Below, in pieces: positions 1,308 through 35,421 of a stretch of 38,530 nt of DNA; the first letter of the stretch is position 1; every line of letters begins with the position of its first letter. Under the pieces are notes generated by a model that saw only the letters and a program-made list of their open reading frames with translations, was not told the DNA's origin and made no database searches. The DNA is from Rhodocyclaceae bacterium (GTDB lineage: Bacteria; Pseudomonadota; Gammaproteobacteria; Burkholderiales; Rhodocyclaceae). The stretch covers positions 1-38,530 of the forward strand of contig JACDZI010000025.1 of NCBI GenBank assembly GCA_013426785.1. The letters are read 5' to 3'. The position numbers and the translations under genes are program-made.

Positions 1308-1331
1308 AAAAGTCGGCGCTGGCAGGACGGC
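1308..1331 (+). repeat. 24-nt interspersed repeat, copy 1
   Basis: Exact match to the window consensus AAAA-GTCGGCGCTGGCRGGACGGC with A at the degenerate position R. It is intergenic, between the divergent MFS gene and the broken response regulator. The rest of 1285-1415 holds no other feature I can name. Confidence 0.9.
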
Positions 1332-1415
1332 GGTATTTTCGCTAATCAAGCAATTCAAGGGGCTACGGCATCGAATCGTCGCTCCTGATCACGGAACCGT
1401 GGCGCCTGGTCGGCA

Positions 1416-2388
1416 ATGAGTACCAGCAACGAAAAGCCGATTGTACTGGTGGTGGATGACATGCCTGAGAGCATGGCGGTTCTTGGCGAGTTGCTGCAGC
1501 CGGATTACCACGTGCGGATTGCCAATTCCGGACAGCGTGCCCTTGATGTCGCCACTAGCGAACCCCATTCCGACCTGATCCTGCTCGATGTGATGATGCC
1601 CGGCATGGAAGGCTACGAGGTACTGACGCATTTGCGTGCCAAACCGGAGGCTTGCGATATCCCGGTCATTTTTGTTACCGCGATCGGCTCCGTAGCCAGA
1701 ACCTCTGGTTCGAATCCGAGGTTGCCCGTCGCATGCGCGAGAACCAGATCGTCCAGGATGTCTCGATGCGGGCGCTGGCCAGTCTGGCGGAGACCCGGGA
1801 TAACGAAACCGGCAACCACATTCGTCGCACTCAGGGTTATGTCGAAGTGTTGGCACTTGCCCTAGTCAATCCCTCCCGCTATGCTGCGTTACGCTCGCAC
1901 GACATCATTGAGGTCATCGTCAAGGCCACACCTTTGCACGATATCGGCAAGGTCTGCTTTACCGACACATCTTGCTCAAGCCGGGGCCGTTCAATCCCGA
2001 CGAATGGGAGATCAAGAAAACCCATGCGCGTCTCGGCGTCGAGGCCATCGAGGAAGCCTTGCAGGGCGAAGAAAACCACGTACCGCTGTCCTTCCTGCAC
2101 ATCGCCATGGACATCGCGCATTCCCATCACGAGAAATGGGATGGCAGCGGCTACCTGGATGGCATCGGTGGCGAGGTCATTCCCTTGCCGGCGCGGCTGA
2201 TGGCGGTAGCGGATGTCTTCGATGCATTGATCTCGAAGCACGTCTACAAGCCGGCCATGTTGATCGATGAAGCAGCCAAGATCATAATGTCCGGGCAGGG
2301 CAGTCATTTCGATCCCGAGATCGTCGCTGCTTTCCAGACTCACCTCGATGGGTTCTGGCAGATCGCCGCGCGCTATGGTGACGACTGA
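1416..2388 (+). pseudogene. REC/HD-GYP response regulator, internally deleted and frameshifted
   Basis: Reads as a two-domain response regulator in which REC would control a c-di-GMP phosphodiesterase (HD-GYP), but it is broken into three frames. Frame A (1416 to about 1685) has a REC start with VLVVDDMPES and the phosphoacceptor stretch LILLDVMMPGMEGYEV, ending at VIFVTA. Frame B (from about 1695) resumes with LWFESEVARRMRENQIVQ, then ETRDNETGNHIRRTQ and HDIGKV. Frame C (about 1965 to 2388) continues LLKPGPFNPDEWEIKKTHA, then HSHHEKWDGSGYLDG (the HHExxDGxGYP signature) and VFDALIS. Between A and B about 40 codons of the REC domain, including the conserved Lys region, are missing. Between B and C a single base appears lost (GACACATC where GACCACATC would restore HDIGKV...PDHILLKPG). 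It lies just upstream of gltX. A sequencing error could explain the 1-nt lesion but not the deletion. Confidence 0.85.
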
Positions 2389-2425
2389 GCCCGTGCCGCA
2401 GTGATTGCCGGCTGGCATGGGTAGG

Positions 2426-2431
2426 TAGAAT
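2426..2431 (+). promoter_or_regulatory. possible -10 box of gltX
   Basis: TAGAAT lies 28 nt upstream of the chosen gltX ATG (2460), with a TTGCCG hexamer about 15 nt further upstream. The spacer is short, so this is only a candidate. Confidence 0.25.
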
Positions 2432-2459
2432 GCTCGCCTTACTCATAATCGAGCCTGTC

Positions 2460-3866
2460 ATGTCTTCATCGCTTCCCGTAGTCAGAACCCGATTTGCCCC
2501 CAGCCCGACCGGTTATTTGCATATCGGCGGCGCACGCACGGCGCTATTCGCCTGGGCCTATGCCCGCCGCCATGGTGGCCAGTTCATCCTGCGCATCGAG
2601 GACACCGATGTAGCCCGCTCGACACCCGAGGCGGTGCAGGGGATCCTCGACGGCATGCAGTGGCTGGGCCTGGCGCACGACGAAGGCCCCTTCTACCAGA
2701 TGCAGCGCATGGAACGCTACAAGGAAGTCATCCAGCAGATGCTCGCGGCCGGCACGGCCTACCAGTGCTACATGGCGAAGGAAGAACTCGATGACCTGCG
2801 CGCCGCGCAGGAAGCCCGCAAGGAAAAGCCCCGCTATGACGGCCGCTGGCGGCCTGAGCCAGGAAAAACCCTGCCGCCGATCCCGCCGGGGCACAACCCC
2901 GTGGTGCGCTTCAGGAATCCGACTACCGGCGTGGTGGCCTGGGACGACCAGGTCAAGGGCCGCATCGAGATTGCCAATGCCGAACTCGACGATTTCATCA
3001 TCGCACGTGCCGATGGCACGCCGACCTACAACTTCTGTGTGGTGGTGGATGACCGGGACATGGGCATTACCCACGTGATTCGCGGCGACGACCACGTGAA
3101 CAACACCCCGCGCCAGATCAACCTGCTACAGGCGCTGGGCGCGCCGGTGCCACGCTACGGCCACCTGTCGATGATCCTCGGCGACGACGGCACCAAGCTG
3201 TCCAAGCGCCACGGCGCGGTATCGGTGATGCAATACGACGAGAACGGTTATCTGCCCGAGGCCGTGCTCAACTATCTGGGGCGACTCGGCTGGTCGCACG
3301 GCAACGAGGAAGTGTTTTTGATGGCGCAGTTCGTCGAGTGGTTCGACCTCGACCACATCACCAGTTCGGCCGCTCAGTTCAATACCGAGAAACTCAACTG
3401 GCTCAACGCCCACTATCTCAAGCTGGCCGACGACGCGCGGCTCGGTGCGGAGATCCGGCGCCGCTTGTCACGCGAGGGCGTCACGGCAACCGACTGTCCC
3501 GATGCGGCCGCCATCGCCGCACTCTACAAGGACCGGGTGCAGAACTTGAACGAACTGGCCGATTGTGCCCATCCCTTCTATATTGCCCCGCATGCATCGG
3601 CAGAACTGGTGGCCCAGCATCTGACGGATGCCGCGCAAGCCGCATTGGCCGATCTCAGGAGCCGTCTCGCCAGAGCCGACTTTTTGCCCGAGGTGCTGGG
3701 CAAGGCACTCAAGGAAACCCTCGTCGCCACCGGACTGAAAATGCCGCAAGTGGCGATTCCGTTGCGCGTCGCCTTGCTCGGCCAGCCGCAAAGTCCTGCC
3801 ATCGACCGGGTGCTGGCAGTACTGGGACGCGACCGTACCTTAGAACGGCTCGACCGCCTACCTTGA
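2460..3866 (+). CDS. gltX: glutamate--tRNA ligase
   Basis: Class I aminoacyl-tRNA synthetase that charges tRNA-Glu with glutamate in the cytoplasm. The N-terminus [20 protein letters not shown] carries the HIGH-type motif (HIGG), and [11 protein letters not shown] is the KMSKS-type loop. Between them are typical GluRS elements such as LRIEDTD, GPFYQM and [16 protein letters not shown]. The helical anticodon-binding C-terminus ends [23 protein letters not shown] chose ATG 2460 (468 aa), which gives the usual [16 protein letters not shown] start. An in-frame ATG at 2430 would add ten unconserved residues. The stop codon overlaps the TTG start of the next gene by 4 nt, implying translational coupling. 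The frame is full length and intact. Confidence 0.97.
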
Positions 3867-4969: not shown

Positions 4970-4982
4970 TCCACCGCCTTTT

Positions 4983-6884
4983 CTACAAAGTCCCCTTCCA
5001 CGCAAACCGTCCCGGATCGACGGCGGCGGCCAGTTCGTTCCCGACCGGCAGCGGGTCGCCGAGGATCTGGCTGGCGAGCAGTTCTGCCATCAGTGGCGCC
5101 CAGACGAAACCGCGCGCGCCATAGCCGCTGGCGACGAACAATCCCGGCCAGCGCGGCCATTCGACATGGGCGGGTGGGCGCGGCTCGCAGTGCGGCAGCG
5201 GCAGTGCGCCGACCATCGGCAGTTTATCTGGCGAGACCGGGCGCAGGCCAACACGGCCTGTCAGGGCAGCGGGGTCGAAGTGGCCCGCGGCATCCGGCAG
5301 CAGCGCGGCGAGGCGCCCAAGGTTCGACTCATGGTCGGCGGCATGAGCACCAAGGTCTTGGCTGCGCTGGAAGGTCGCCCCGAGGCCGGCGAGTCCATCG
5401 TGGGGCGGTGCGAGATAACCCTCGCGGCACACCACGCTGCGCGGCCAAATTGCGAGTTGCCCTGCGGGCAGGTGGCTGACCTGGCCGCGGAAGCAGCGCA
5501 GCGGCAGGTGGGCGGATTGGGACAGCTCACGCAGGCCGTGCGCATGAGCGAGGACGACGGTATCGCCGTTCCACAGGCACTGGCCAGCGGTCCCGAGGAT
5601 GTTCCAACCACCGTCCGTCGGTTCCAGTGCAGAAATCCTGGTCCCCAGCCGGCATTCGATGCGTTCGCCGCCCGCTGCTTGCAGTGCTGTGGCCAGTGAC
5701 ACCGGCGAGATCCAGCCGGCCTGTGGAAACCACCAGCCATCGCCCGATACGCGCGTACCGACGATGCTTTCCGCAGCGGCGGTATCGATGAACTGCGCGA
5801 AGTCGCCGGGCAATTGCTGGTCGCGCACGATGGCGGCCTGCTTGCGGGCATGCTCGGCATCGCGGGCGATCTGAAACACCCCGCAGGGCTGCCAAGTGAC
5901 GCCATGTCCAGCTTCTGCCAGTTCGCGCAGACGGCGCAGCGCGTAGAAAAACGCTTCCTGGTTCAGGCGTGACAGCCGCGTCGGGTCGACGGCGAGTACC
6001 GGCAGCAGGATGGCCTGGCGGTTGCCGGAGGTTTCGGCGGCGATCGTGTCGTGTCGTTCGAAGAGTGTCACCGCGCAGCCCCGTGCGGCCAGCCGTTCGG
6101 CGCAGGCAATGCCGGCGATGCCGCCGCCGATGACGGCGATGCACTCGGGCGATGGCGCCAAGTCGGCAATGTGGGGGTTGCCGGGATGCGTGGCCACCAA
6201 CATTTCGCGCTTGAAGCCATAGCCCGACTGCCGATCAACGGAAAAGTCGGCGCTGGCGAGACGGCGGCGCACATCGCCGGCGATGGTCCAGGTGGAGAGC
6301 GTGGCACCCGGAGCGGCCAGCCAGGCGAGGTCGTTGATCAGTTCCTGAGACCACATCTCTGGATTCTTCGCCGGGGCGAAGCCGTCGAGGTAGAAGGCGT
6401 CGAAGCGGCCACCGATGCTGGGGACGGCGGTGCGTGCGTCGCCGAAAATCAGCGTTAGCGTAACCTTGCCATTCTCGAAATGCAGGCGATGAAAGCCGGC
6501 GACAAGGCTCGGCCAGAAGGCCCGTAGTTGCGCGGCGAGATCGGCAACTTCCGGCAATTGCAAGTGAAGTCGCTCGAGGTCTTCAACCCGGAACGGATGT
6601 TTCTCGACCGAAAAGAAGTGCAACTGGCGTGGCCGCTGCGGGTCGCTACGCCAGGCCTGCCAAGTGGTGAGGAAGTTGCCGCCGAGGCCGAAGCCGGTTT
6701 CGAGGATGGTGAAGCGCCTACGCCCGTGCCAGCGCGCCTGGGCTCCGAGCAGGCGGTTGCCGCCAAGAAAGACATGGCGCGAGTGCGCCAGCGGGTCGCC
6801 GACGCCGTGATAGATGTCGTCATAGGCGGCGGAGTAGGGATTGCCTGCACCGGCGAACGCGAGTTCGGCCGGAAGCAGTGGCAC
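4983..6884 (-). CDS. mnmC: bifunctional tRNA mnm5s2U34 biosynthesis protein MnmC
   Basis: Completes the wobble uridine modification (c)mnm5s2U34 of tRNAs for Lys, Glu and Gln. Residues 1 to about 240 form the SAM-dependent methyltransferase: LETGFGLGGNFLTTW is the SAM-binding motif, followed by FDAFYLDGFAPAKNPEMW and FKREML. Residues from about 250 form the FAD-dependent oxidase that removes the carboxymethyl group, opening with IAVIGGGIAGIACAERLA. It ends with RVGLRPVSPDKLPMVGALP and VASGYGARGFVWAPLMAELL. At 633 residues the length is normal. The start is GTG (6882-6884), 11 nt after the lysS stop, so it is the last gene of prfB-lysS-mnmC. Codons near residue 210 coincide with a copy of the 24-nt repeat, read as RRLASADF where relatives usually have an AGF-type stretch. 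Confidence 0.95.
   Translation of the reverse strand: MPLLPAELAFAGAGNPYSAAYDDIYHGVGDPLAHSRHVFLGGNRLLGAQARWHGRRRFTILETGFGLGGNFLTTWQAWRSDPQRPRQLHFFSVEKHPFRVEDLERLHLQLPEVADLAAQLRAFWPSLVAGFHRLHFENGKVTLTLIFGDARTAVPSIGGRFDAFYLDGFAPAKNPEMWSQELINDLAWLAAPGATLSTWTIAGDVRRRLASADFSVDRQSGYGFKREMLVATHPGNPHIADLAPSPECIAVIGGGIAGIACAERLAARGCAVTLFERHDTIAAETSGNRQAILLPVLAVDPTRLSRLNQEAFFYALRRLRELAEAGHGVTWQPCGVFQIARDAEHARKQAAIVRDQQLPGDFAQFIDTAAAESIVGTRVSGDGWWFPQAGWISPVSLATALQAAGGERIECRLGTRISALEPTDGGWNILGTAGQCLWNGDTVVLAHAHGLRELSQSAHLPLRCFRGQVSHLPAGQLAIWPRSVVCREGYLAPPHDGLAGLGATFQRSQDLGAHAADHESNLGRLAALLPDAAGHFDPAALTGRVGLRPVSPDKLPMVGALPLPHCEPRPPAHVEWPRWPGLFVASGYGARGFVWAPLMAELLASQILGDPLPVGNELAAAVDPGRFAWKGTL
6242..6265 (+). 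repeat. 24-nt interspersed repeat, copy 2 (inside mnmC, one mismatch)
   Basis: Differs from the consensus at one position (GGCGAGACGG for GGCRGGACGG). It lies antisense within the methyltransferase domain of mnmC and is read there as part of RRLASADFS without disturbing the frame. With one mismatch inside a conserved gene, chance similarity is less easily excluded than for the exact copies. Confidence 0.6.
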
Positions 6885-12940: not shown

Positions 12941-15151
12941 CTAGCCGCGCAGTGCCTGTAATTCGGCGATGGTAACGTGCAGGCGGGTGGACAGGGTGCG
13001 GGCAATGTTGCCGAACAGCGCGAACAGCAGATCGTCGTGCAGCAGCGCCAGCAGTTCAAAATGCTCGCGGGAGAGCATGAACACTTCGCAGTCGGACACG
13101 GCCAGTGCATCGACGGCGTGGCTGCCGGATTCGATGAAACCCATGTCGCCGATCAGGTCACCGGGCCCGCAGGTGGCGAGGTGATAGTTTTCCTTCTTGC
13201 GCAGAGGCACCATGAGTTTGACGGTGCCCTGACGAATGATGAACAGCTCGTTGCACTCGGCGCCCGACTTGAAGATGCGCTTGCCCGCCTTGATCGTGCG
13301 GAGTTCCATTGCGGCTTCAAGTGCGGCCACGGCCTCTTTCGAGCAGCCGGTCAGCAGCGGCATGGTGCGCAGGTCGAGATGCTTGACAGCGGCCACCACC
13401 GTCTGTTCGCCCGCGAGTTCACGGGCCTCCATCCACTCGATGGCATCATCCATTTGGCGAAACGCGAAAGCCTTGTTGGTGGGCCGCACCACGCCGGTTT
13501 CCTTGAGGAAGCGCTTCATTTTCAGGCCGCTGGGCAGTCCCTTGGGAATCTCGCAAAACACCAGGTAGGCGTTGTTTTCCTCCAGCCGGTCCTTGATCTG
13601 TTCCAGCACATGGGTCGCCGTCACATCCAGGGATTGCACGCGGCGCATGTTGAGGATGACGTATTTGCGCTTGCCGGCCTCCGGTTCCAGCGCGGTGAAT
13701 AACTGGTTGGCCGTGCCAAAGAACAGGCTGCCCTGCAATTCGAACACCACTACGGCGCTGCCTTCGCTTTCGAGTCGCTCGATGTCTTCCGGCGTGCGGG
13801 CCCGCTTGGTGAGAATTTCGCTGCCCTCGATGCGGCTGCGCACCACTGAGCTCTTGGTCTGTTCGCGGATGAACAGCAGGATGGCGAGTGCTACCCCGAC
13901 ACCCGATGCGGCGATCAGGTTGCCGAATACCGCCACGAGGATGACCGCGAGAATGACGAAGAAATCGATTCGAGTGGATGGCGAAAAGAAGAAGCTCAGG
14001 CTGTGGGTGTCGATCATGCGGAAGCCGATGACGACCAGGATGGCCGCCAGCGCCGCGACCGGCACCCAGGCGATCAGTGGGGCGAGCAGCAGGAACGCCA
14101 CCAGCGAGAAGATGCCGCTCATCAGTCCGGCGGTCCTGGTGGTGCCGCCGCTCGAGATGTTAATCAGCGAGGCGCCCATCGTGCCGGCGCCGGGAATGCC
14201 GCCGACCAGTGCCGAGCCGATGTTGCCGAGGCCTTGGCCGACCAGTTCGCGGTTGGAATCGTGATGGCCGCCGGTCATGGCATCGATGACGACGCAGGTT
14301 TTCAGGGTATCGATCGATAGCAGCACTGCCAGCGTCAGGGCCGGCACGGCCACCTGGATCGCCACGTCGAGGCCGAGGCCGCGCAGCGCGGCGATATGGC
14401 GGCTGATGCTGTCGCCCAAACCGCCGTCGCCACTGGTCAGCGCGCCGATCAGCAGGGGGTTGTTGTCGGTCCTGAGGAGTTCCGGCTTGAGCAGGCCGAG
14501 CAGCAGGTAGCTGCCGACGCCGGCCAACAGGGCGAGGATGGCAGCGGGTACCTTGGTGGTCAGTCGCGGGGTGACCAGCATGGCCAGCATGACCACCGAG
14601 CCGACGATGATGCTTGGCAGTTGCCATTCGCCCGGCGCGCCGAGCGTCGCAAGGAAGCCGGTGCCACTAGGCGTACCCAGCCATTTGGGCAACTGGCTGC
14701 CGATGATGAGGAGGCCGACGCCCGACAAGTAGCCGCTGACAACCGGATAGGGAATGTACTTGATGAGCCGGCCGATGCTGGCCAGTCCCAGCGCGATCTG
14801 TATCCCGCCTGCCAGCAGGCCGATCAGCGCCAGCAGGAGCAACGCGGTTGTCGGCGCGATGCCCTGCTGGGCGTAGCCGAGGGCCAGCGCCGACAACACC
14901 GCTGCGGCCGGGGCGCAGGGCGCCGTGATCAGGCGCGAACTGCCGCCAAAGTACGGCGCGATCAGCCCCAGCGCAGTGGCGCCGAGGATGCCGGCCATGG
15001 CGCCCTGCACGGCCAGGCTGCCGCCCAGCGGGGCGAAGATCGTTACGCCGAAGGCGATGGCCGAGGGCAGCGCCACCAGCATCGCCGCCAGCCCGCCCCA
15101 GATGTCGCCGGTCAGGCGGGCGCGGTTTTGCGTGGGAGCGGCGTCGGGCAT
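12941..15151 (-). CDS. SulP-family anion transporter with STAS and cyclic-nucleotide-binding domains
   Basis: A 736-residue inner-membrane protein. Residues about 15-430 are a SulP permease: WGGLAAMLVALPSAIAFGV at the start, SSRLITAPCAPAAAVLSAL, and GGIPGAGTMGASLINISSGG. Residues about 460-560 form a STAS domain (VVVFELQGSLFFGTANQLF, then LNMRRVQSLDVTATHVLEQI). The last ~140 residues are a cNMP-binding/Crp-like sensor domain (FKSGAECNELFIIRQGTVKL, GPGDLIGDMGFIESG). Relatives transport sulfate, bicarbonate or dicarboxylates. The substrate is unknown here, though C4-dicarboxylate uptake would suit the frd operon just downstream on the same strand. The sensor domain suggests ligand-gated transport. 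Confidence 0.92.
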   Translation of the reverse strand: MPDAAPTQNRARLTGDIWGGLAAMLVALPSAIAFGVTIFAPLGGSLAVQGAMAGILGATALGLIAPYFGGSSRLITAPCAPAAAVLSALALGYAQQGIAPTTALLLLALIGLLAGGIQIALGLASIGRLIKYIPYPVVSGYLSGVGLLIIGSQLPKWLGTPSGTGFLATLGAPGEWQLPSIIVGSVVMLAMLVTPRLTTKVPAAILALLAGVGSYLLLGLLKPELLRTDNNPLLIGALTSGDGGLGDSISRHIAALRGLGLDVAIQVAVPALTLAVLLSIDTLKTCVVIDAMTGGHHDSNRELVGQGLGNIGSALVGGIPGAGTMGASLINISSGGTTRTAGLMSGIFSLVAFLLLAPLIAWVPVAALAAILVVIGFRMIDTHSLSFFFSPSTRIDFFVILAVILVAVFGNLIAASGVGVALAILLFIREQTKSSVVRSRIEGSEILTKRARTPEDIERLESEGSAVVVFELQGSLFFGTANQLFTALEPEAGKRKYVILNMRRVQSLDVTATHVLEQIKDRLEENNAYLVFCEIPKGLPSGLKMKRFLKETGVVRPTNKAFAFRQMDDAIEWMEARELAGEQTVVAAVKHLDLRTMPLLTGCSKEAVAALEAAMELRTIKAGKRIFKSGAECNELFIIRQGTVKLMVPLRKKENYHLATCGPGDLIGDMGFIESGSHAVDALAVSDCEVFMLSREHFELLALLHDDLLFALFGNIARTLSTRLHVTIAELQALRG

Positions 15152-15236: not shown

Positions 15237-15260
15237 GCCGTCCCGCCAGCGCCGACTTTT
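15237..15260 (-). repeat. 24-nt interspersed repeat, copy 3
   Basis: Exact consensus copy in minus orientation, 15 nt upstream of the ATG of the decayed methyltransferase gene. Confidence 0.92.
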
Positions 15261-15275
15261 TGGGACAATGCAGGT

Positions 15276-17349
15276 ATGACACCGGAAAAATTCGTCGCCC
15301 GCTGGAGTCGGAAATGGACTGGCGCAACATCGACCCGTCAATCTTCGGCACGCTGTTCGAGCGCGGGCTGAACCCGGCCAAGCGTTCGCAACTCGGCGCG
15401 CACTACACCGACCCGGCTACCATCCTGCGGCTGATCGAGCCGGTCATCGTCCGGCCACTTGCTGCCGAATGGCAGGTGGCGAAAGACCGCATTGCCGCGC
15501 TGCTGGTCAAGTCGAAGAAGCAGGGCGACAAGGCGCACAAGGACGCCACGGCGCTCTTCCAGCACCAGCTCGAACGCCTGCGCAATTTTCGCGTGCTCGA
15601 TCCGGCCTGTGGCAGCGGCAACTTTTTGTACCTCGCGCTGAAAGCCTTGAAGGACCTGGAGCGCCGCGCCAACGTCGAAGCCGAAGCGCTGGGCCTGCAA
15701 CGGCAGGTGAGCATCGAGGTTTCGCCCGCCAATGTGCTGGGCATCGAACTCGACCCCTACGCGGCCGAACTGGCGCGCGTCACGGTCTGGATCGGCGAAA
15801 TCCAGTGGATGCTGCGCAGCGGCTACACGGTGTCGGCGCAGCCGATCCTCAAGCCGCTCGACACCATCGAGAACCGCGACGCGTTGATAAAAGTCGGCGC
15901 TGGCGGGACGGCGGTGGAAGAGGCGGAATGGCCGGCCTGCGATGCGATTGTCGGCAATCCGCCGTTCCTCGGTGGGACGCGAAAGCGCGGGGAACTAGGC
16001 GATGCGTATTTCGATGCACTGGCGAGCTTATTTGATGAGCGTGTGCCACCCGGCGCTGATCTGGTGTGCTATTGGTTTGAGAGGGCGCGGGGCAGATTAC
16101 CGCTGGCCAGTCCAAAGCGGCGGGGCTGGTTGCCACCAACAGTATTCGCCAGCCGGCGAATCGAAAGGTTTTGGAGCGGATTGCCGATAGCACTCGAATC
16201 TTCGAGGCATGGAGCGACGAGCCATGGATTAATGATGGCGCGGCGGTGCGCGTTTCACTGGTGTGTTTTGGCAACAATGAGGGGACTCGCCTCGATGGCT
16301 TCGATGTGTCCGAAATTCATGCGGACCTACGCTCAGGCGAAAACCTGACGACGGCAAGCCGTTTGGCCGAAAATGCCGGAGCATCTTTCTTCGGACTTGC
16401 ATTGGCTGGAGATTTCAGCGTTGATTACCCGATAGCCTCAGCTTGGCTACGCTTGCCCAATCCCAATGGCAGACCTAATAGCGATGTTGTTCGCCCACTA
16501 TGGAATGGCAAGGATCTGACGGCTCGTTGGGAAGGGCGCTGGACGGTCGATTTCGGACCGACGATGGAAGAGGGCGATGCAATGCTCTACGAAGCCCCCT
16601 TCGCTCATGTCTTGGCAAATGTGAAGCCAGTTCGGGTAACTAACAACCGTAAGTCGCGAGCCGAGAAGTGGTGGCGTCATGGCGAAGCACGACCGGCAAT
16701 GCGTAAAGCACTGTCCGGGCTCGGGCGTTACATTGCAACTTCAGAAAAGTCGAAGCATCGCTTTTTTGTTTGGTTGGACGAGCGCATTGCACCAGATAAC
16801 CGATTGGTTGTAATCGCACGTAATGACGAAGTGACCTTTGGCATTCTCTCCTCACGAATTCACGTCTGCTGGGCGCTTGCCGTTGGCTCAACACTTGAAG
16901 ATCGCCCGGCTTACGCTACAACCACTTGTTTCGACACTTTCCCCTTCCCCGAGCACCTGACGCCAAGTGACTCGGCAGAGTGGGGCAACGCCATCCCGCT
17001 GTGCGCTCAAGCCATCGCGACTGCCGCAAAAAAACTCAACCAACTCCGCGAAAACTGGCTCAACCCGCCCGAATGGACGGAGCGCTTCCCGGAAATCGTC
17101 CCCGGCTACCCCGACCGCATCGTCGCCAAACCCGGCCACGAGGCCGACCTGAAAAAGCGCACCCTGACCAATCTCTACAACGCCCGCCCGGCCTGGCTGG
17201 ACAATGCCCACAAGGCGCTCGACGCCGCCGTTGCCCAAGCCTACGGCTGGACGGACTACGCGCCGGAGATGGCGGACGAGGAAATCCTGCGGCGGCTTCT
17301 TGCTCTAAACTTGATGCGCTTCGCCCAATCTTCGGAAGACAAATCATGA
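15276..17349 (+). pseudogene. MmeI-like (type IIG) DNA methyltransferase, N-terminal deletion and frameshift
   Basis: The start survives at ATG 15276 (MTPEKFVARW, typical of this family), but after about a dozen codons the sequence jumps, in another frame, to MDWRNIDPSIFGTLFERGL at 15314. The nuclease/linker part, roughly 250-300 codons, is missing. The methyltransferase core follows: VLDPACGSGNFLYLALKAL (SAM motif) and CDAIVGNPPFLGG (catalytic NPPF, adenine-type). Near 16089-16092 a G appears lost from a G-run: the first frame ends in a run-on, while the other continues AGQSKAAGLVATNSI, then RKVLERIADSTRIFEAW, to the C-terminus ending RFAQSSEDKS. The target-recognition part (about 16250-16970) is visibly more A/T-rich. 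A 24-nt repeat adds KVGAGGTA before the NPPF motif. The stop overlaps the antitoxin ATG. Probably non-functional, at least as a nuclease. Confidence 0.85.
15889..15912 (+). repeat. 24-nt interspersed repeat, copy 4 (inside the methyltransferase gene)
   Basis: Exact consensus copy read in frame as KVGAGGTA between RDALI and EEAEWPACDAIVGNPPF. From memory of the family this spot is a short variable linker before the NPPF strand, so the copy looks like a tolerated in-frame insertion. Confidence 0.92.
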
Positions 17350-17923: not shown

Positions 17924-17947
17924 GCCGTCCCGCCAGCGCCGACTTTT
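17924..17947 (-). repeat. 24-nt interspersed repeat, copy 5
   Basis: Exact consensus copy between the convergent toxin and prfC genes, 10 nt from the toxin stop and 6 nt from the prfC stop. It fills most of the 40-nt gap. Confidence 0.92.
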
Positions 17948-17953: not shown

Positions 17954-19528
<1,575 letters not shown>

Positions 19529-19574: not shown

Positions 19575-19598
19575 AAAAGTCGGCGCTGGCGGGACGGC
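19575..19598 (+). repeat. 24-nt interspersed repeat, copy 6
   Basis: Exact consensus copy between prfC and the stop of the PAS/GGDEF/EAL gene, 7 nt beyond that stop and just upstream of the prfC -10 box. Confidence 0.92.
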
Positions 19599-19605: not shown

Positions 19606-22434
19606 TCAGGCCTGCTTCGCCATCGCCTCGAATTGACCGAACGGCAACGGGCGACTGAACAGATACCCCTGGTAGGCATGGCAGCCGTGACAGGCCAGAA
19701 ATTCCTTTTGGCCCTCCAGCTCCACCCCTTCCGCGATAACTGACAGCCCCATGGTTTCCGCCAGGGCGATGACCATCTTGGCGATGGCCGCATCGTTGGC
19801 ATCGTTGAGGATGTCCCTGATGAACCCCTGGTCAATCTTCAGTTGGTCGAGCGGCAGCCGTTTCAAATACGACAGCGAGGAATAGCCGGTACCGAAGTCA
19901 TCAAGGGAAAATCCAACTCCACTGGCTTTGAGTTCGGCCATTTTCCTGATTACGCCCTCAACGTCGCTGACCAGCAGACTCTCGGTCAATTCCAGCTTGA
20001 GCCGGTACGGATTGGCGCCGGTATGGGCGAGAATCGCCAGCACCTCCTCGACGAAATTAGGCAAGCGGAACTGGCGGGCACTGACATTGACGGCCAGCGT
20101 GAGATGCTCCATTCCGGGGTCTGCCGCCATCGCCACCAGTTGCTGGCAGGCAGAAAAGAGTACCCAATGACCCAAGGGCAGGATCAGTCCGGTTTCTTCC
20201 GCCAATGGAATGAAATCGGCGGGGGACACAATGCCGCGTTGGGGGTGTTGCCAGCGCAATAGAACTTCCGCGCCCGTCAGGCGATCAGCCCCGACGATCT
20301 GGGGCTGGTAGTACAGAATAAACTGCTTGTCTTCGAATGCGCTGTGCAAGTCGGTTTCAAGTGCGGCGCGGCTCATGGCCGCGACTTGCATCTCGGGCTC
20401 GAAAAAGCACAGCGTATTCCGACCGGCCGCCTTGGCCTGATACATGGCCAGGTCGGCATGTCTCAATAATTCGTCCATCGAGCCTTGGTGGTCGATGAAC
20501 AAGGTCACACCGATGCTGGACGTATTGCGATATTCGGTGCCGGCAAGTTGATAGATGCGGTTCAGCGCCGCCAGCAGCTTCTCGCCGACGATTTTCACCT
20601 GGGCAGCAGCTTCCTGGGCGATTTCGCTCAGATCTTCGAGAACTACCACGAACTCGTCGCCTCCCAGTCGGGCGACCGTATCGCCCTCGCGTACGCAACT
20701 CACCAGGCGTTGCGCCACCTGCTTGAGCAGCAGATCGCCGATATCGTGGCCGAGGGTGTCGTTCAGGGTCTTGAAGTTGTCGAGATCGACAAACAGCAGG
20801 GCTCCATGCTTGCCGCTGCGGGCTCTTGAAACCAGAACCTGCTTGAGGCGGTCAATCAGCAGGCGGCGATTGGGCAGGCCGGTCAGCGGGTCGTAAAAGG
20901 CCAGTTCATAGATTTTCTCTTCCGCCAGCTTGCGTTCGGTGATGTCCAGATAGGAACCGATGTAGTTCGTTACCGCACCGTCGCTGCCTTTGACGGCCGT
21001 GATGGTCAGCCATTGGGGGAATACCTCGCCGTTTTTGCGGCGGTTCCAGATTTCACCGTGCCAGCTATCCGATTCGCGGATGTTTGCCCACATGGCAGCG
21101 AAGAATGCTGCGTCGTGCCGGCCCGAGGCGAGCAAACACGGTTGTTGGCCGACGATATCCTCGGCCGCATAGCCGGTCATTTCCGAAAAAGCCCGGTTGA
21201 TGCGCAGGATGACATTGTCGGCATCGGTGATCATCATGCCTTCCTGCGATTCGAAGGCCGATGCGGAAATGCGCAGATCCGCTTCGGCACGCTTGAGTTC
21301 GGAGATGTCGGCATAAACCCAGATGCTGCCCTCGTGGGGTTTGTTGGCGTCGACTGCACGGCCGCTCAATGCTCCCCAGAAAATGCTGCCATCCTTGTGC
21401 TTGAGTTTGACTTCGGTATTGAAGTTCCTGTTCTCTGCGACGGTATCGTAGGCGACTTTGCCGATCATTTCGAAGGTATCGTGCGTGTCGTAAAGCTGTT
21501 CGGTCGATTTTCCGATCAATTCTCCCGGGTCATACTGGAAAATCTCTTCCAGCCGACGATTGCAGGAAGCAATGCGCCGATTCTTGAGGTAGATGATGCC
21601 AATCAGGGTGTTGTTGAAGATCATTTCATGCTCGATGAGCAGTTGGCGAATTTGCTCTTCCTGCTGCTTGCGCTCGGTAATGTCGATGTAACTGGTGACA
21701 AACCCGCCCTCTGGCAGGGGCGTACCGCGCACCTCGATTACCGTGCCATTGGGACGCACGCGCTCGACTCGGTGGGCCTGGAAGTTCTTGGCGAGTTTGA
21801 CCGCGGCCGCAACTTGTTCCTCGACATCTCCGGGGCCATATTCGCCGCGTTGTGCGTTGAAACGGATTAAATCCTCGAACCCCAGTTCCGCCTGAGCGAA
21901 CAGCGAGTCGGGGAAATCCATCACGCTTCTGAATTCGGCATTGTGTGCAACAAGACGAAGTTGTCGATCGAACAGGGAGATGCCGCCGGGAAAGTTGTCG
22001 ACGATGGCTGACAGGGTGGTGTTTTGCCGCAGCAGGCTGGCTTCGGCGCGCTTGCGGTCAGTGATATCCCGCCAGACACAGTGAATGAACTGCCGGTGGT
22101 TTATCTGGAAGGTGGCAAGGCTGACTTCTGCGTCAAAGTTTGTTCCGTCCGCTTTGGTATGTATCCATTCGAAGCGATGTCGGCCCTGGTCGCGGACAAT
22201 TGCCAGCAATCGTTCGGCTTTTTTGAAAGATTCCTCGCCATCGGCTTGCCTTGCCGGTGAGAGTATGGAGGGATGAACATTCAGCAATGCTGCGCGACTT
22301 GCATAGCCCAGGACGCGAACCGCAGCCTCGTTGCATTCGATAAATTGATTGCCTTCGATGATCCATGAGGGATCGGGCAAGGAATCAAATATCTGTTTGA
22401 ACCAATGATCCGAATGATGGCTGGAACGAAGCAT
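19606..22434 (-). CDS. PAS-PAS-PAS-PAS-GGDEF-EAL c-di-GMP regulator
   Basis: A 942-residue soluble sensor with no membrane segment. Four PAS-type modules fill residues 1 to about 510: DSLPDPSWIIEGNQFIECNE; IVDNFPGGISLFDRQLRLVA; FNNTLIGIIYLKNRRIASCN; ESQEGMMITDADNVILRINR. PAC segments such as HKDGSIFWGALSGRAV lie between them. The GGDEF domain has an intact RLGGDEFVVVLEDL (about residue 590), so diguanylate cyclase activity is possible. The EAL domain has GAEVLLRWQHP (EVL variant, about residue 720), KLELTESLLVSD, LDDFGTGYSSLSYLKRLP and IAEGVE, so phosphodiesterase activity is also plausible. A perfect AGGAGG (22446-22441) lies 6 nt before the ATG. The signal sensed is unknown. Confidence 0.94.
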   Translation of the reverse strand: MLRSSHHSDHWFKQIFDSLPDPSWIIEGNQFIECNEAAVRVLGYASRAALLNVHPSILSPARQADGEESFKKAERLLAIVRDQGRHRFEWIHTKADGTNFDAEVSLATFQINHRQFIHCVWRDITDRKRAEASLLRQNTTLSAIVDNFPGGISLFDRQLRLVAHNAEFRSVMDFPDSLFAQAELGFEDLIRFNAQRGEYGPGDVEEQVAAAVKLAKNFQAHRVERVRPNGTVIEVRGTPLPEGGFVTSYIDITERKQQEEQIRQLLIEHEMIFNNTLIGIIYLKNRRIASCNRRLEEIFQYDPGELIGKSTEQLYDTHDTFEMIGKVAYDTVAENRNFNTEVKLKHKDGSIFWGALSGRAVDANKPHEGSIWVYADISELKRAEADLRISASAFESQEGMMITDADNVILRINRAFSEMTGYAAEDIVGQQPCLLASGRHDAAFFAAMWANIRESDSWHGEIWNRRKNGEVFPQWLTITAVKGSDGAVTNYIGSYLDITERKLAEEKIYELAFYDPLTGLPNRRLLIDRLKQVLVSRARSGKHGALLFVDLDNFKTLNDTLGHDIGDLLLKQVAQRLVSCVREGDTVARLGGDEFVVVLEDLSEIAQEAAAQVKIVGEKLLAALNRIYQLAGTEYRNTSSIGVTLFIDHQGSMDELLRHADLAMYQAKAAGRNTLCFFEPEMQVAAMSRAALETDLHSAFEDKQFILYYQPQIVGADRLTGAEVLLRWQHPQRGIVSPADFIPLAEETGLILPLGHWVLFSACQQLVAMAADPGMEHLTLAVNVSARQFRLPNFVEEVLAILAHTGANPYRLKLELTESLLVSDVEGVIRKMAELKASGVGFSLDDFGTGYSSLSYLKRLPLDQLKIDQGFIRDILNDANDAAIAKMVIALAETMGLSVIAEGVELEGQKEFLACHGCHAYQGYLFSRPLPFGQFEAMAKQA

Positions 22435-23228: not shown

Positions 23229-24551
23229 CTAAGGCTGGGCAGTACTCGCCACCGCCGCGAAGTATTGGACGTTGTTGCGACCCTGGAGCTTGGCTTGATA
23301 CATTGCCGCATCGGCATTTTTCATCAGTGAAGCGATATCTCGACCGTTGATCGGGTAGATGCTGATGCCGATGCTGGGGGTCGAGAGCAAGTCATGTCCC
23401 TCGATCCGGTAGGGTTGCGCCAGCGTGTGCATCAGCTTGCCCACCACCGCTGTCGTTACCGCGTCTATCGTCGTGTCGGTCAGGGCGACGACGAACTCGT
23501 CGCCTCCGAGCCGGGCGACAATGTCCGATTGGCGCACGCAGGCCTTCAGTCGCTGCGCCACCTCCACCAGCAACAGGTCGCCGATATGGTGTCCGAGAGT
23601 ATCGTTGATGGTTTTGAACCGGTCTAAGTCGATGAACATGACTGCCAGCTGGGTGCCGTTGCGCTGGGCTTCGGCCAATGCCTGCTCGAGGACGATGGTC
23701 AGGTAGAGACGGTTCGGCAGGTTGGTCAGTGCATCGTGGTGGGCGATGCGGCGAATGCGCTCCTCGTTGGCTTTCTGGTTGCTGATGTCGGAAAAGCTGG
23801 CGATGTGATAATCGATTTCGCCGCGCGCAGTTACTATCGTCGAAATTGTCATCAACTTGGGATAAACGTCGCCGTTCTTGTGCCGGTCCCACATTTCTCC
23901 CTGCCAGAAGCCATGGGTCAGAATGGCCTGCCACATGGCTTGATATTCCTCGGGCGTGGTGCGCCCGGAAGTAAGAAATTTTGGATCGCGTCCACGCACC
24001 TCATCCATGTCATAGCCAGTGAGTCGCGTGAAGGCCCTGTTGACCTTGATGATCAGGTTGTTGCGATCGGTGATCAAGATCGCGTCGCCGCTGAATTCGA
24101 ACACATGCGCGGCTAGACGCAGTTGCCGCTCGGTACGTTTGTTGGCCAGCAGGTTCTTGACGCGGGCGCACAGCACGGTGATGACTACGGGTTTGGTCAG
24201 GTAATCATCGGCACCCAGTTGCAGGCCTTCGATCTGGCTCAGCTCCGAGATGTCTGCGGAAATGAAGATTACCGGGATATCGCGCGTATCGGTCTTCGCC
24301 TTCAGGTCCCGTATCACCTCGATGCCGCTCATGCCTGGCATCATGACATCGAGCAGGATCAGGTCGGGACGGTCGGGGTGTGTCACCAGTTCGAGCGCGG
24401 CCACGCCGTTGGTGGCGGTTTTCACCCGATAGTCGGATTTGAGGGCAGCCGCCAGCACGTGCAGGTTGGCCGGCATGTCGTCAACCAGCAATAACAAGGG
24501 CTTTTCTTCGTCGTAGACTTGCTGTGCGGGATCGAAGGCGGGAGTGTTCAT
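23229..24551 (-). CDS. REC-PAS-GGDEF response regulator (diguanylate cyclase)
   Basis: A 440-residue two-component output protein. REC (about residues 17-130) has VDDMPAN, phosphoacceptor D68 in LILLDVMMPG, and K120 in DDYLTKPV. A PAS domain (about 150-265) reads FEFSGDAILITDRNNLIIKV and GEMWDRHKNGDVYPKLM. The GGDEF domain has an intact RLGGDEFVVALTD (about 349-353), so phosphorylation probably controls c-di-GMP synthesis. I prefer ATG 24551 (MNTPAFDPAQQVYDEEKPLL) because the 27 residues added by an upstream ATG at 24632 look non-coding. No sensor kinase is adjacent. It shares its REC-linker style (VDDMP...LLDVMMPGM) with the broken HD-GYP regulator at 1416. Confidence 0.94.
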   Translation of the reverse strand: MNTPAFDPAQQVYDEEKPLLLLVDDMPANLHVLAAALKSDYRVKTATNGVAALELVTHPDRPDLILLDVMMPGMSGIEVIRDLKAKTDTRDIPVIFISADISELSQIEGLQLGADDYLTKPVVITVLCARVKNLLANKRTERQLRLAAHVFEFSGDAILITDRNNLIIKVNRAFTRLTGYDMDEVRGRDPKFLTSGRTTPEEYQAMWQAILTHGFWQGEMWDRHKNGDVYPKLMTISTIVTARGEIDYHIASFSDISNQKANEERIRRIAHHDALTNLPNRLYLTIVLEQALAEAQRNGTQLAVMFIDLDRFKTINDTLGHHIGDLLLVEVAQRLKACVRQSDIVARLGGDEFVVALTDTTIDAVTTAVVGKLMHTLAQPYRIEGHDLLSTPSIGISIYPINGRDIASLMKNADAAMYQAKLQGRNNVQYFAAVASTAQP

Positions 24552-24638
24552 GGGGACGATTTTAGTGCAACAGTGCCGCAATGGCTTCAGGAGCGAGCGG
24601 AAAGGCCTTGGCGGTTGGGGCAGCCTCTCCATTGCAAT

Positions 24639-24662
24639 GCCGTCCTGCCAGCGCCGACTTTT
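24639..24662 (-). repeat. 24-nt interspersed repeat, copy 7
   Basis: Exact consensus copy (A at R) in the 132-nt gap between the REC-PAS-GGDEF start and the hydrolase stop, 21 nt beyond the latter. Nothing else is recognisable in the gap. Confidence 0.92.
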
Positions 24663-27120: not shown

Positions 27121-27127
27121 GGCAGTC

Positions 27128-30286: not shown

Positions 30287-30292
30287 TTGAGA

Positions 30293-30316
30293 GCCGCCCT
30301 GCCGGCGCCGACTTTT
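30293..30316 (-). repeat. 24-nt interspersed repeat, copy 8 (two mismatches)
   Basis: Differs from the consensus at two positions. It begins one nucleotide after the parvulin stop codon, in sense orientation (TAA-C-AAAAGTCGG), between the stop and the terminator hairpin. Confidence 0.85.
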
Positions 30317-30317
30317 G

Positions 30318-31109
30318 TTATTCGACCTTGGCTTTGGCGCGCAGGTCGAGGATGTGCTTTTCGACCGCCTGCTGGCGCATGCGCTGGATGATCTGCGGCT
30401 TGACTTCGTCGAACGGCGGCGTCTTGAGTTCGCGGACGTCGTCGAGCTGGATGACGTGCCAGCCGAAGCTGCTCTGTACCGGTGCCTGGGTATATTGGCC
30501 GGGCTGAAGCTTGACCATCGCTTCGGCAAAGGGCGGTACATAGCTGGCCTTGTTGGCCCAGCCGAGGTCGCCACCACGTTCCTTGGAGCCTGGGTCCTTC
30601 GAGGCTTTGGCGAGTTCATCGAACTTGCCGCCCTTGTTCAGGCTGACGATGATGTCCTTCGCTTCGCTTTCTTTCTCGACCAAGATGTGGCGGGCCTTGT
30701 ATTCCTTGTCGCCGACCGCAGTCCTGATGCTGTCGAATTCCTTCATCACATCGGCATCGGAAATCTTGACGTTGCGGGCATATTCGTTGAGGTAGGCACC
30801 GATCACCACCCCCTGGCGGGCAAGATCAAGCTGGGCCTGTACTTCCGCCTTCTTGTCGATGCCCTTCTTGCTGGCTTCCTGGGCCAGTATTTCACGCCGC
30901 ACCAGTTCTTCGCGGACGGCGTTCTGCAGTTCCGGCGTATTGGCCTGACCTTGGGAAAGCTGGTTGGCCATCAGGACATTGGCGCGAGCGACGGGGATGG
31001 CTTTGCCGTTTACCGTGGCGACCGACTTGGCATCGGCCGCAAAAACAGGAGCAGCAGCAAAGGCGGTGACAAGGGCGAGCAGGGAAGCGGAGCGGATGGC
31101 GTGTCTCAT
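30318..31109 (-). CDS. periplasmic parvulin-type peptidyl-prolyl cis-trans isomerase
   Basis: A 263-residue exported folding factor. The signal peptide is RSASLLALVTAFAAAPVFA followed by ADAKS. The N-terminal SurA/PrsA-like helical chaperone region contains VATVNGKAIPVARAN and VREELVRREILAQEA. The rotamase domain (about residues 135-230) shows KARHILVEKESEAKDIIVSL, KDPGSKERGGDLGWA and QSSFGWHVIQLDDVRE. Length is typical of betaproteobacterial PpiC/PrsA-like proteins. It is last in the msrB-yciB-yciI-bolA cluster, 36 nt after bolA, and is followed by a repeat copy and a hairpin terminator. Confidence 0.94.
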   Translation of the reverse strand: MRHAIRSASLLALVTAFAAAPVFAADAKSVATVNGKAIPVARANVLMANQLSQGQANTPELQNAVREELVRREILAQEASKKGIDKKAEVQAQLDLARQGVVIGAYLNEYARNVKISDADVMKEFDSIRTAVGDKEYKARHILVEKESEAKDIIVSLNKGGKFDELAKASKDPGSKERGGDLGWANKASYVPPFAEAMVKLQPGQYTQAPVQSSFGWHVIQLDDVRELKTPPFDEVKPQIIQRMRQQAVEKHILDLRAKAKVE

Positions 31110-31145
31110 GTTTGTCCTGATGTTGGGTTGGGATCAGTGTGTCTG

Positions 31146-31400: not shown

Positions 31401-31696
31401 GGCAGCACCTTCTTGAAGGGCTTGACGCTAATCCGCGCATAGACGCCGGCCGCGACGTAGGGGTCGGCATCCGCCCAGGCCTGCGCATCAACCAGCGAGG
31501 GAAATTCGGCCACGATCAGGCTGCCGGAGAAACCGGCCGGGCCGGGATCGGGGCTGTCGATGGCCGGGCAGGGGCCAGCGAGGATCAGGCGACCCTCGGC
31601 TTGAAGTGCCTGCAGGCGGTCGAGATGGGCCGGTCGGGCGGCGAGTCGCTGTTGCAGCGAGTCGGCGTTGTCTTCACTATGAATCATGTAGAGCAT
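31397..31696 (-). CDS. YciI family protein
   Basis: A 99-residue YCII-domain protein: [20 protein letters not shown] at the start with the typical [19 protein letters not shown], and [20 protein letters not shown] near the end. The ferredoxin-like fold has a conserved His-Asp pair of unclear enzymatic role. The gene begins directly after the yciB stop and overlaps bolA, the usual conserved order. Confidence 0.93.
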
Positions 31697-32248: not shown

Positions 32249-32259
32249 GGTTGATCAGT

Positions 32260-32649: not shown

Positions 32650-32668
32650 TTGTTCCTCTTGTGTTGGC

Positions 32669-33916
32669 ATGCGCATTGTAGTGCTCGGAGCAGGTTTGAT
32701 CGGCGTAGCCTCGGCATGGTTCCTGGCCGAGGATGGCCATGAGGTCGTCGTGATCGATCGCCAGCCCGGCCCCGGCCTGGAGACCAGCTTTGCCAATGGC
32801 GGACAGATCTCGACCAGCCATGCCGAACCTTGGGCCAACCCGTCGGCACCCCGAAGAATTCTCAAGTGGCTGGGCCGCGAGGATTCTCCCCTGCTGTGGC
32901 GGCTTCGCGCCGATCCGGCCCAGTGGGCCTGGGGTCTGCGCTTCCTGCGCGAATGCAGCCCGCAGCGTACCCGCGCCAACATTCGTTCCATTCTCGCCCT
33001 GGCACTGGACAGTCGGGCAAGGGTGAAGCAGTTGCGCCGCGAACTGGGTCTGAAATACGACTGCCTGGAGCGCGGCATCCTGCATTACTACACCGATTCG
33101 GCCGAGTTCGAGCACGCCGTTACCCAGGCGGCGCTGATGCGCGAATTCGGCTGCGAACGCGTGGCCAAGACGGCCGCGGAGTGCGTCGCCATCGAACCGG
33201 CACTGGCGCAGTCGACCTTGCCCATCGTTGGCGGTACATTCACGGCCGACGACGAGTCCGGCGATGCCTGCCAATTCACCCAAACACTGGCGGGACACTG
33301 CGCTGAGCGCGGGGTGGAGTTTCGCCATGGCACCGAGGTGGCCGGATGCGAGCAGGAAAAAGGGCGCTTCGCCGCCGTGCGCCTCGCGGAAGGCAGTCAC
33401 GTTCCAGCCGATGCCTGCGTGGTTGCCCTCGGCAGTTACACCGCACAGTGGCTCAAGCCATTGGGAATTTCCATTCCGGTCTATCCCGCCAAGGGTTATT
33501 CGATCACCATTCCGCTTGCCCCCGACCGGCCTGCACCGGAAGTCAGTCTGATCGACGATGGTGCCAAGCTCGTCTATTCCCGCCTCGGCCAGCGCCTGCG
33601 CGTGGCGGGTACCGCCGAATTTGCCGGCCATGACCTGAGCCTGAATCCGGCCCGCATTGCCCCCCTGATCGATCGTGTGCGCGCAATTTTTCCGCCGCTC
33701 GAAGTGCGCGAAGATTCTTGCGAGCCGTGGGCCGGGCTGCGGCCGGCTACGCCCAGCAATGTGCCGCTGATCGGCCCGACCCGCGTGCCGGGGCTGTACC
33801 TCAATACTGGCCATGGCACCTTGGGCTGGACCATGGCGGTCGGCTCGGGACAACTACTGGCCGACCTGATCGCCCGCCGCGCGCCGGCCATCGATGCCCG
33901 TCCCTACCTTCCTTGA
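32669..33916 (+). CDS. dadA: D-amino acid dehydrogenase
   Basis: A 415-residue FAD-dependent dehydrogenase oxidising D-amino acids (typically D-alanine) to 2-oxo acids and passing electrons to the quinone pool. The FAD motif is [20 protein letters not shown], followed by [20 protein letters not shown] and WGLRFLREC, all typical of DadA. The C-terminal FAD region has [20 protein letters not shown] and [20 protein letters not shown]. Length is near the usual value. No alr/dadX racemase is adjacent. Confidence 0.95.
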
Positions 33917-33925
33917 GAGCTAGCC

Positions 33926-34303
33926 ATGCCTGCACCCAAGACGCCCGATCATGCCCGTCTAGACCAACTCGTCGCCGACGTCCGGCGCACAGCAGAACGA
34001 CGCGAAAAGGACTACCGTGAACAAGCGCTCAAAATTTACCCGTGGATCTGCGGACGCTGTGCCCGTGAGTTCACCCAGGCCAACCTGCGCGAACTGACGG
34101 TGCACCACCGCGACCACAATCATGACAACAATCCGTCCGACGGCAGCAACTGGGAACTGCTCTGCCTGTATTGCCATGACAACGAACACCAGAAACAAAT
34201 CGAAGCCAGTGCCGGCCGCAGCATCGAGACAAACCGCGGCTCCCTGGCGTCCCATTCGCCGTTTGCCGATCTGAAGGCCTTGCTGCAGAAGGATCGCAAA
34301 TAA
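33926..34303 (+). CDS. YajD-like HNH nuclease
   Basis: A 125-residue HNH-domain protein. Zinc pairs are in WICGRCAREF and LCLYCHDNEH, and the HNH core is ELTVHHRDHNHDNNPSDGSN. The remainder matches YajD of gamma/betaproteobacteria, whose role is unknown. It begins 9 nt after the dadA stop with a GAGAG element upstream, so it may be co-transcribed with dadA. Confidence 0.92.
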   Translation: MPAPKTPDHARLDQLVADVRRTAERREKDYREQALKIYPWICGRCAREFTQANLRELTVHHRDHNHDNNPSDGSNWELLCLYCHDNEHQKQIEASAGRSIETNRGSLASHSPFADLKALLQKDRK

Positions 34304-34335
34304 CACCGAAGACAAACCCATACAGGAGACTCCCC

Positions 34336-35421
34336 ATGCCCACGCTTTTCGACTCCGTCCAGATCGGCGACATTGCCCTCGCAAACCGCATCGTCATGGC
34401 GCCCCTGACACGCAACCGCGCCACGGACGGCTTGCCCGGCCCGCTGACCGTCGAGTATTACCGCCAGCGCGCCAGTGCCGGCCTGATCATCTCCGAAGCC
34501 AGCCAGATCAGCCCGATGGCGCAGGGTTACCTCGATACGCCCGGCATCCACTCGCCGGAGCAGGTCGCGGCCTGGCGCACGGTAACGGACGCGGTGCATG
34601 CGGCCGGCGGCCGCATCGTCATTCAGCTCTGGCACGTCGGCCGCATCTCGCATGTGTCGCTGCTGCCCGGCGGGGCGTCGCCCGTTTCGTCCACCAACCG
34701 CCAATCGCCGGCCATGACCTTCACCCGCGAGGGCTTTGTGCCGGTATCCGCGCCACGTGCCCTGCGTGACGACGAACTGCCCGGACTGATTACTGACTAC
34801 GTCACGGCGGCGCAGAACGCAATCGATGCCGGCTTCGACGGCGTGGAGATCCATGCTGCCAATACCTACTTGCTCGAACAGTTCCTGCGCGACAGCATCA
34901 ACGATCGCAGCGGTCCTTACGGTGGCAGCATCGCCAACCGCACGCGACTGCTGGTCGAGGTGGTGGAGGCCGTCACGCAAAAAGTCGGCGCTGGCAGGAC
35001 GGCGATCCGCATCAGCCCGATGACCACTTTTGGGAACACGGCAGCGCTCGACAGCGATCCGCAGGCCCTCTACAACCATGTGGTCGAGCAACTGGCCCGC
35101 TTCAAGCTGGCCTACCTGCACGTGATCGAGGGCGAGACCGGCGGCCCCCGCCTGCCTGACGTGGCCGTGCCCTTCGACTATGCGGCGTTGCGCAGTCGCT
35201 GGCCGGGCGCCTGGATGATCAACAACGGCTATTCACTGGCCGACGCGCTCGCCGCCGTCGACAGCGGTGCGGCCGATCTGGTCGCCTTCGGCCGGTACTT
35301 CATTGCCAATCCGGACCTGGTGCGACGCCTGCGCGAAGATGCTCCCCTCAATGCGCTGCGCGCCGACAAGCTTTACGGGGGCGCCGCCGAGGGCTACACC
35401 GATTACCCCACGCTCGACTGA
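34336..35421 (+). CDS. alkene reductase of the old yellow enzyme family
   Basis: A 361-residue FMN enzyme, NemA-like, using NAD(P)H to reduce activated C=C bonds, quinones or nitro esters. Motifs: NRIVMAPLTRNRA at the FMN site, QLWHVGRISH, GFDGVEIHAANTYLLEQFLR, RSGPYGGSIANRTRLL and FGRYFIANPDLVRRL. A Shine-Dalgarno element, AGGAG, lies 7 nt upstream of the ATG. The segment TQKVGAGRTAIRISP, where relatives have something like GADRVGVRISP, is encoded by an exact copy of the interspersed repeat. An alcohol dehydrogenase follows after 32 nt, perhaps forming an aldehyde/enone detoxification pair (inference). Confidence 0.95.
   Translation: MPTLFDSVQIGDIALANRIVMAPLTRNRATDGLPGPLTVEYYRQRASAGLIISEASQISPMAQGYLDTPGIHSPEQVAAWRTVTDAVHAAGGRIVIQLWHVGRISHVSLLPGGASPVSSTNRQSPAMTFTREGFVPVSAPRALRDDELPGLITDYVTAAQNAIDAGFDGVEIHAANTYLLEQFLRDSINDRSGPYGGSIANRTRLLVEVVEAVTQKVGAGRTAIRISPMTTFGNTAALDSDPQALYNHVVEQLARFKLAYLHVIEGETGGPRLPDVAVPFDYAALRSRWPGAWMINNGYSLADALAAVDSGAADLVAFGRYFIANPDLVRRLREDAPLNALRADKLYGGAAEGYTDYPTLD
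34980..35003 (+). repeat. 24-nt interspersed repeat, copy 9 (inside the alkene reductase gene)
   Basis: Exact consensus copy (A at R) read in frame as KVGAGRTA, the same frame used by copy 4 in the methyltransferase. It falls on a moderately conserved loop just before the RISP strand, so it replaced or coincided with native codons rather than adding length. Confidence 0.9.

Follow-up and report, generated by a model that had tools for sequence, protein, structure and literature searches.

The window analysed here, the whole stretch of 38,530 nucleotides (nt) from a Rhodocyclaceae bacterium, carries ten copies of a dispersed motif of 24-25 nt, which is probably a self-specific uptake sequence comparable to those described in Neisseriaceae (DNA uptake sequence, DUS) and Pasteurellaceae (uptake signal sequence, USS). 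The motif is real, occurs in several genera and is shaped as if by molecular drive. Taken together, a large number of copies on both strands, the existence of dialects, origin in place, permissive placement and even spacing constitute the signature known from uptake sequences. We also consider it likely, with somewhat more reserve, that the motif belongs to a third, independently evolved self-specific uptake system, located in the Rhodocyclaceae, that would extend over at least 7 genera with dialects and make use of a receptor reading a longer site than ComP.

Abundance and anatomy of the motif

Genomes were scanned on both strands with the pattern AAAAGTCGGCGCTGGCRGGACGGC, allowing up to 3 mismatches. 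Within the window the scan yields ten copies, seven of them exact, compared to no match in 100 dinucleotide-preserving shuffles. An earlier sequence-only reading of this DNA had listed nine copies and held that chance does not explain the seven exact ones. The latter claim is borne out by the shuffles, and all nine copies are real, with coordinates and mismatches correct (seven exact, one mismatch at 6242, two at 30293); a tenth copy, on the minus strand at 3661-3684 with two mismatches, had been missed. The source genome of the window (G000; 3,240,435 bases on 241 contigs) contains 734 copies, 378 forward and 356 reverse, corresponding to approximately one copy per 4.4 kb, and none of the reversed motif. 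Since this number is far beyond the copies of the window, the repeat is not a local feature, an outcome on which the sequence-only reading had made its own claim depend. In samples of G000, G001, G017, G026, G009 and G007, the strongest over-represented 12-mer is likewise the motif.

The anatomy of the motif was derived from 435.7 kb of G000, comprising the window and 20 further stretches, in which 114 copies with no more than 3 mismatches were collected. The element is 25 nt long and has sharp edges: conservation covers positions 1-24, position 25 is occupied by A or G, and the sequence on either side is nearly uninformative (at most 0.21 bits). Its information content amounts to about 40 bits, a value obtained by adding the per-position values by hand, and one that is inflated because only copies within 3 mismatches were selected. 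Mismatches follow a bimodal distribution, with 46, 37, 20, 11, 6 and 3 copies at 0 to 5 mismatches (reversed control: 0, 0, 0, 0, 0 and 1) and a minimum at 5-6, where 3 and 6 copies compare with 1 and 3 in the reversed control. Inspection reveals three similar blocks within the motif (GTCGGC, GCTGGC and GACGGC) and a TTTT at the end of its minus strand. Strong dyads were sought by inspection, and flanking repeats both by inspection and in the 435.7-kb sample; neither was found, as the sequence-only reading had maintained for dyads and flanking terminal repeats.

Origin of the copies

To follow individual sites, a search with masked motif was conducted for 445 sites against sampled genomes, resulting in 175 aligned pairs from 130 sites. 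Removal of 47 pairs whose 60-nt flanks were less than 60% identical left 128 orthologous pairs from 107 sites. The motif is kept in 91 of these pairs (at most 4 mismatches to the dialect of the subject), is degenerate without gaps in 21 (8 with 5-7 mismatches, 13 with 8 or more) and partly gapped in 15. A single pair lacks the block, in a region that differs more widely, and no clean empty site exists among the 128 alignments. An earlier version of the search, unmasked and without requirement on flank identity, gave 159 alignments, of which 87 had the motif present, 18 were ungapped but degenerate, 53 were partly gapped and one had a large gap. Copies within genes vary residue by residue at constant length. 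For example, the copy at 6242 of the window encodes RLASADF, the same place reads NLAAAGF in G017 and HLAAAGF in G002; elsewhere AVPPAPTF is replaced by AVPHAETL and KSALAGR by LAPLAGK. Gene calls allowed 72 pairs to be classified, 61 of them coding, 8 over a gene edge and 3 intergenic, as few intergenic sites could be aligned. Copies hence arise base by base in place, not by insertion. The same test applied to USS had the same outcome, summarized as 'USS are not insertions' (PMC1626085). At one orthologous place the motif occurs in opposite orientations, namely in locus L234 near 18812 (G017) and in locus L383 near 13904 (G002).

Placement, spacing and orientation

With gene borders taken from a home-made gene caller, 72 of the 114 copies in the G000 sample are coding (63%), 39 are intergenic and 3 lie at an edge, in a sequence that is 90% coding. 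The placement is permissive, with an intergenic excess and preferred reading frames. In terms of the peptides obtained by our translation of the reading phases, the favoured frames in G000 are KVGAG[GR]TA (27 copies), AV[PL]PAPTF (16), KSALAGR (14) and R[PL]ASADF (11), the disfavoured ones KSRRW[RQ]DG (2) and PS[RC]QRRL (2). The corresponding numbers in G017 are, in the same order, 17, 17, 5, 3, 2 and 0. Intergenic copies have a median distance of 12 nt to the gene border, the nearest border being a 3' end in 21 cases and a 5' end in 17, and both orientations are found.

The spacing of neighbouring copies is more even than random, with a coefficient of variation of 0.77 compared to 0.99 in simulations (P = 0.0012, 122 copies). 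The sequence-only reading had proposed a comparison of strands along the chromosome; in 21 sampled blocks of the complete genome G017, the orientation by chromosome arm is 44 versus 31 (counted by hand), which is not significant. For replication-oriented motifs such as KOPS (FtsK-orienting polar sequences) and Chi, a strong replichore bias would be expected. Two close inverted pairs were noted in G000, one on contig C68 near 19799 (34 nt apart) and one on contig C14 at 13031-13108 (30 nt apart); both could form stem-loops of the kind described for DUS.

Distribution and dialects

Among 61 relatives scanned, the motif was observed in 18 of the 19 genomes assigned to the same genus, G000 included, with 199-734 copies each; the remaining genome, G005, has none. 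The 18 genomes from other genera of the family include G019 (genus g2) with 453 copies, G026 (genus g9) with 743, and 16 with 0-7. Outside the family (24 genomes), G047 has 4 copies and all others have none. The mapping across relatives that had been suggested earlier was extended to 297 genomes from 68 genera of the family, using a dialect-tolerant pattern with 2 mismatches and a tally by hand. At least 50 copies are found in 39 of the 297 genomes and in 7 of the 68 genera (g1, g2, g9, g62, g69, g70 and g88). Below this value follow G064 with 43, G097 with 21 and G232 with 15 copies, and the rest with at most 12; the reversed control gives at most 4 per genome. Eight listed copies of G097 are situated on three contigs (C66, C104 and C557) and possibly represent an island, contamination or a remnant. 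Among the 80 listed of at least 115 matches to the exact 20-mer, most loci bear the labels Rhodocyclaceae, Rhodocyclales, Sulfuritalea or Sulfurisoma, in support of the Rhodocyclales origin that the sequence-only reading had presumed; a few bear other labels, among them Gammaproteobacteria, Thiobacillus, Lysobacterales, Propionivibrio, Azonexus and Casimicrobiaceae. A plasmid search with a stretch of the window gave two matches, both weak and uninformative. A phage origin received no support: in a viral collection, 63 stretches contain the exact 20-mer, and in 60 of these it is present only once.

Samples of 58-60 kb each from the motif-less genomes G005, G036 and G028 contained no substitute 12-mer comparable to the motif, a comparison of limited power, since none was recovered from a 46-kb sample of G019 either, although this genome bears the motif. 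G005 is 87% complete and has no match to a 5.3-kb stretch of the window that is matched, at least partly, by all 18 other genomes of the genus.

Dialects were observed when the consensus was derived anew for each genome from copies with at most 5 mismatches to the consensus of G000. In G016 (23 copies), position 5 is preferentially C (74%) and position 20 preferentially G. Position 25 is A in G017 (90 copies, 94%) and G002 (74 copies, 91%), with position 26 mostly C. G001 (49 copies) is split between A and T at position 4, and G026 (40 copies), from another genus, is split between T and C at position 10 and has G at position 25. The calls for G003 (5 copies), G019 (6) and G007 (13) are based on few copies. 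The spelling of G086, TCGACGCTGG, has 47 exact matches in this genome, compared to at most 13 in any other of the 297 genomes. A coordinated shift of hundreds of copies is a prediction of a drive process.

Transformation machinery and receptor candidates

ComEC was detected in 55 of the 61 relatives and DprA in 59, in 57 of them over the cut-off; both are present in G000. The genome further encodes seven pilin-type N-termini, six of them over the cut-off, including the PilA-like P0002 and the four-cysteine minor pilin P0001. On inspection, the pilin genes beside P0001 resemble fimT, pilV and pilW. P0001 itself was considered as receptor and rejected, as it has a match in 56 of the 61 genomes regardless of the motif. 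The 15 homologues of P0001 that could be extracted are alike in length and cysteine number, and its matches in the PDB are pilins, no ComP entry being named among them; an orthologue of ComP was not established. Because the occurrence of P0001-like proteins, ComEC and DprA does not follow that of the motif, we do not name a receptor. In locus L247 (1216-2193, contig C171 of G000), a pilin-like frame has the motif-encoded peptide AVPPAPTF just ahead of a pilin-type N-terminus.

The proposed mechanism would be as follows. A DNA receptor on the surface of competent cells, most likely a minor pilin of the type IV pilus, would bind free DNA at the 24-25-nt motif, whichever way the motif is oriented, and the pilus would draw motif-bearing fragments in. 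ComEC would pass a single strand, to be recombined by DprA and RecA. With preferential uptake of motif-bearing fragments, recombination would keep repairing and spreading the motif. Such molecular drive would result in hundreds of near-identical copies with one spelling per species and even spacing, concentrated where changes are tolerated, for example at gene borders and in permissive frames.

The copies of the window

The home-made gene calls place four of the ten copies within genes (3661, 6242, 15889 and 34980); the other six (1308, 15237, 17924, 19575, 24639 and 30293) are intergenic, in agreement with the number given by the sequence-only reading. The exact copy at 1308-1331 (plus strand) lies upstream of an open reading frame (ORF) for an MFS transporter (79-1284, minus), at a distance of 23 nt from its start. 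The copy at 3661-3684 is found within a gene for a class I tRNA synthetase of the E/Q type (2430-3866, plus), and the copy at 6242-6265 (plus) within a gene for a fusion of an FAD oxidoreductase and a methyltransferase (4983-6884, minus).

Two exact copies are associated with an MmeI-type methyltransferase gene (15314-16348, plus), one upstream at 15237-15260 (minus) and one within the gene at 15889-15912 (plus). Whether the former is intergenic is determined by where the downstream gene starts, as an ORF from 15233 would contain the copy; the latter is preserved without gaps in three relatives, with silent differences in one of them. The gene (window 15237-16348) looks shortened in its 5' part, and in the loci L182 and L183 approximately 0.77-0.79 kb lie between the stretches matching the window at 15237-15306 and from 15311 onward.

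Of the remaining intergenic copies, three are exact. The copy at 17924-17947 (minus) lies 6 nt past the stop codon of a gene of the release factor 3 type (17954-19528, minus), the copy at 19575-19598 (plus) follows a PAS/GGDEF/EAL gene (19606-22434, minus) at 7 nt from its 3' end, and the copy at 24639-24662 (minus) is situated upstream of a gene of the response regulator/GGDEF type (23229-24632, minus). The copy at 30293-30316 (minus) has two mismatches, lies 1 nt past the stop codon of a gene for a PPIC-type rotamase (30318-31109, minus) and is followed by what appears on inspection as a terminator-like hairpin. The last exact copy, at 34980-35003 (plus), is part of a gene for an NADH:flavin oxidoreductase (34336-35421, plus).

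Comparison with known systems and alternative explanations

The motif shares with the DUS of Neisseriaceae a dispersed occurrence in hundreds to thousands of copies, intragenic as well as intergenic and in both orientations, the existence of dialects (PMC3630211), a permissive placement within the core genome (PMC2397512) and hosts from the Betaproteobacteria. It differs in sequence, which is unrelated to the neisserial one with its core CTG, and in length (24-25 nt versus approximately 10-12 nt); the receptor of DUS is ComP. The minus strand of the motif starts with GCCGTC, as does the neisserial GCCGTCTGAA, which may be chance. With the USS of Pasteurellaceae it has in common a strong consensus, an origin by substitution and a coding fraction of about two thirds, the value for Haemophilus influenzae being 65% (PMC1626085). 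The USS has another sequence and belongs to another family, and the Rhodocyclaceae motif is a block conserved throughout its 24-25 nt.

Several observations argue against a DNA uptake sequence. Competence and uptake in these bacteria are inferred only. Known uptake motifs are quoted with lengths of 9-12 nt (PMC12616744), half that of the present motif, whose copies are also fewer than, for example, the 2787 and 3603 in Kingella (PMC3630211). Close inverted pairs, common in DUS genomes as a frequent but not defining feature (PMC3630211), are rare: the 120 copies of the G000 sample include a single pair at a distance of at most 150 nt. ComEC, DprA and P0001 are also present in motif-less genomes and do not follow the motif: G005, labelled as the same genus, has matches to ComEC, DprA and pilins yet no copy, P0001 has no match in the motif-bearing G012 (76% complete), and G019, with its 453 copies, has a weak DprA match below the cut-off.

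The main rival is a binding site for an abundant cytoplasmic protein, for example a nucleoid organiser or a segregation or recombination factor, that is kept by selection at each site. A genome-wide and fairly even spread on both strands would be expected for such a site, and its length would suit a multi-domain DNA-binding protein. We nevertheless regard it as unlikely, because nearly two thirds of the sampled copies are intragenic and alter protein sequences, near-total identity at 24 positions exceeds what binding needs, as has been argued for USS (PMC1626085), the orientation by arm in G017 shows no firm bias, and shifts of spelling across a whole genome are more easily brought about by drive. 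Among the options of the sequence-only reading, a genome-wide protein-binding motif came nearest to the uptake sequence favoured here, which was absent from its list; segregation receives little support, again in view of the arms of G017.

Its other two options are contradicted. A miniature mobile element or a repeat like REP/BIME (repetitive extragenic palindromes and bacterial interspersed mosaic elements, mobilised by the REP-associated tyrosine transposase RAYT), copied by a transposase or a reverse transcriptase, would account for hundreds of short dispersed copies of high identity, and a Y1 transposase gene is present in G000. However, the motif is not palindromic and is largely intragenic with reading-frame preference, it has neither flanking repeats nor a dyad, the protein length is constant at coding copies, and the block is missing from only one orthologous pair. 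A RAYT was also rejected on account of its distribution: 15 of 37 genomes, G000 included, have a Y1_Tnp match, and the complete motif-bearing genomes G002 (256 copies) and G017 (416 copies) have none. We thus give this explanation hardly any weight. Equally improbable is a transcript 3'-end or terminator element as general function. The TTTT on one strand, the short distance of intergenic copies to gene borders and the position of the copies at 17924 and 30293 after stop codons are compatible with it, but most sampled copies are coding, the nearest borders are almost as often 5' as 3' ends, both orientations occur, and a close inverted pair was found only once in the sample. An RNA family was rejected as well, since no Rfam match exists within the window.

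According to a 2025 paper (PMC12616744), uptake sequences are known only in Neisseriaceae and Pasteurellaceae. The open-licence literature in PMC, with result lists covered in part and preprints outside the scope, yielded no report of the motif or of uptake sequences in Rhodocyclaceae. If the reading as uptake sequence is true, the Rhodocyclaceae would be the third family with such sequences, consisting of environmental bacteria with dialects. A third case would allow for an independent test of whether uptake sequences serve sexual isolation or are a by-product of receptor bias and recombination. It would also imply new receptors to be found and new systems for transformation genetics, and raises the possibility that uptake tags have gone unread among other interspersed repeats of environmental genomes.

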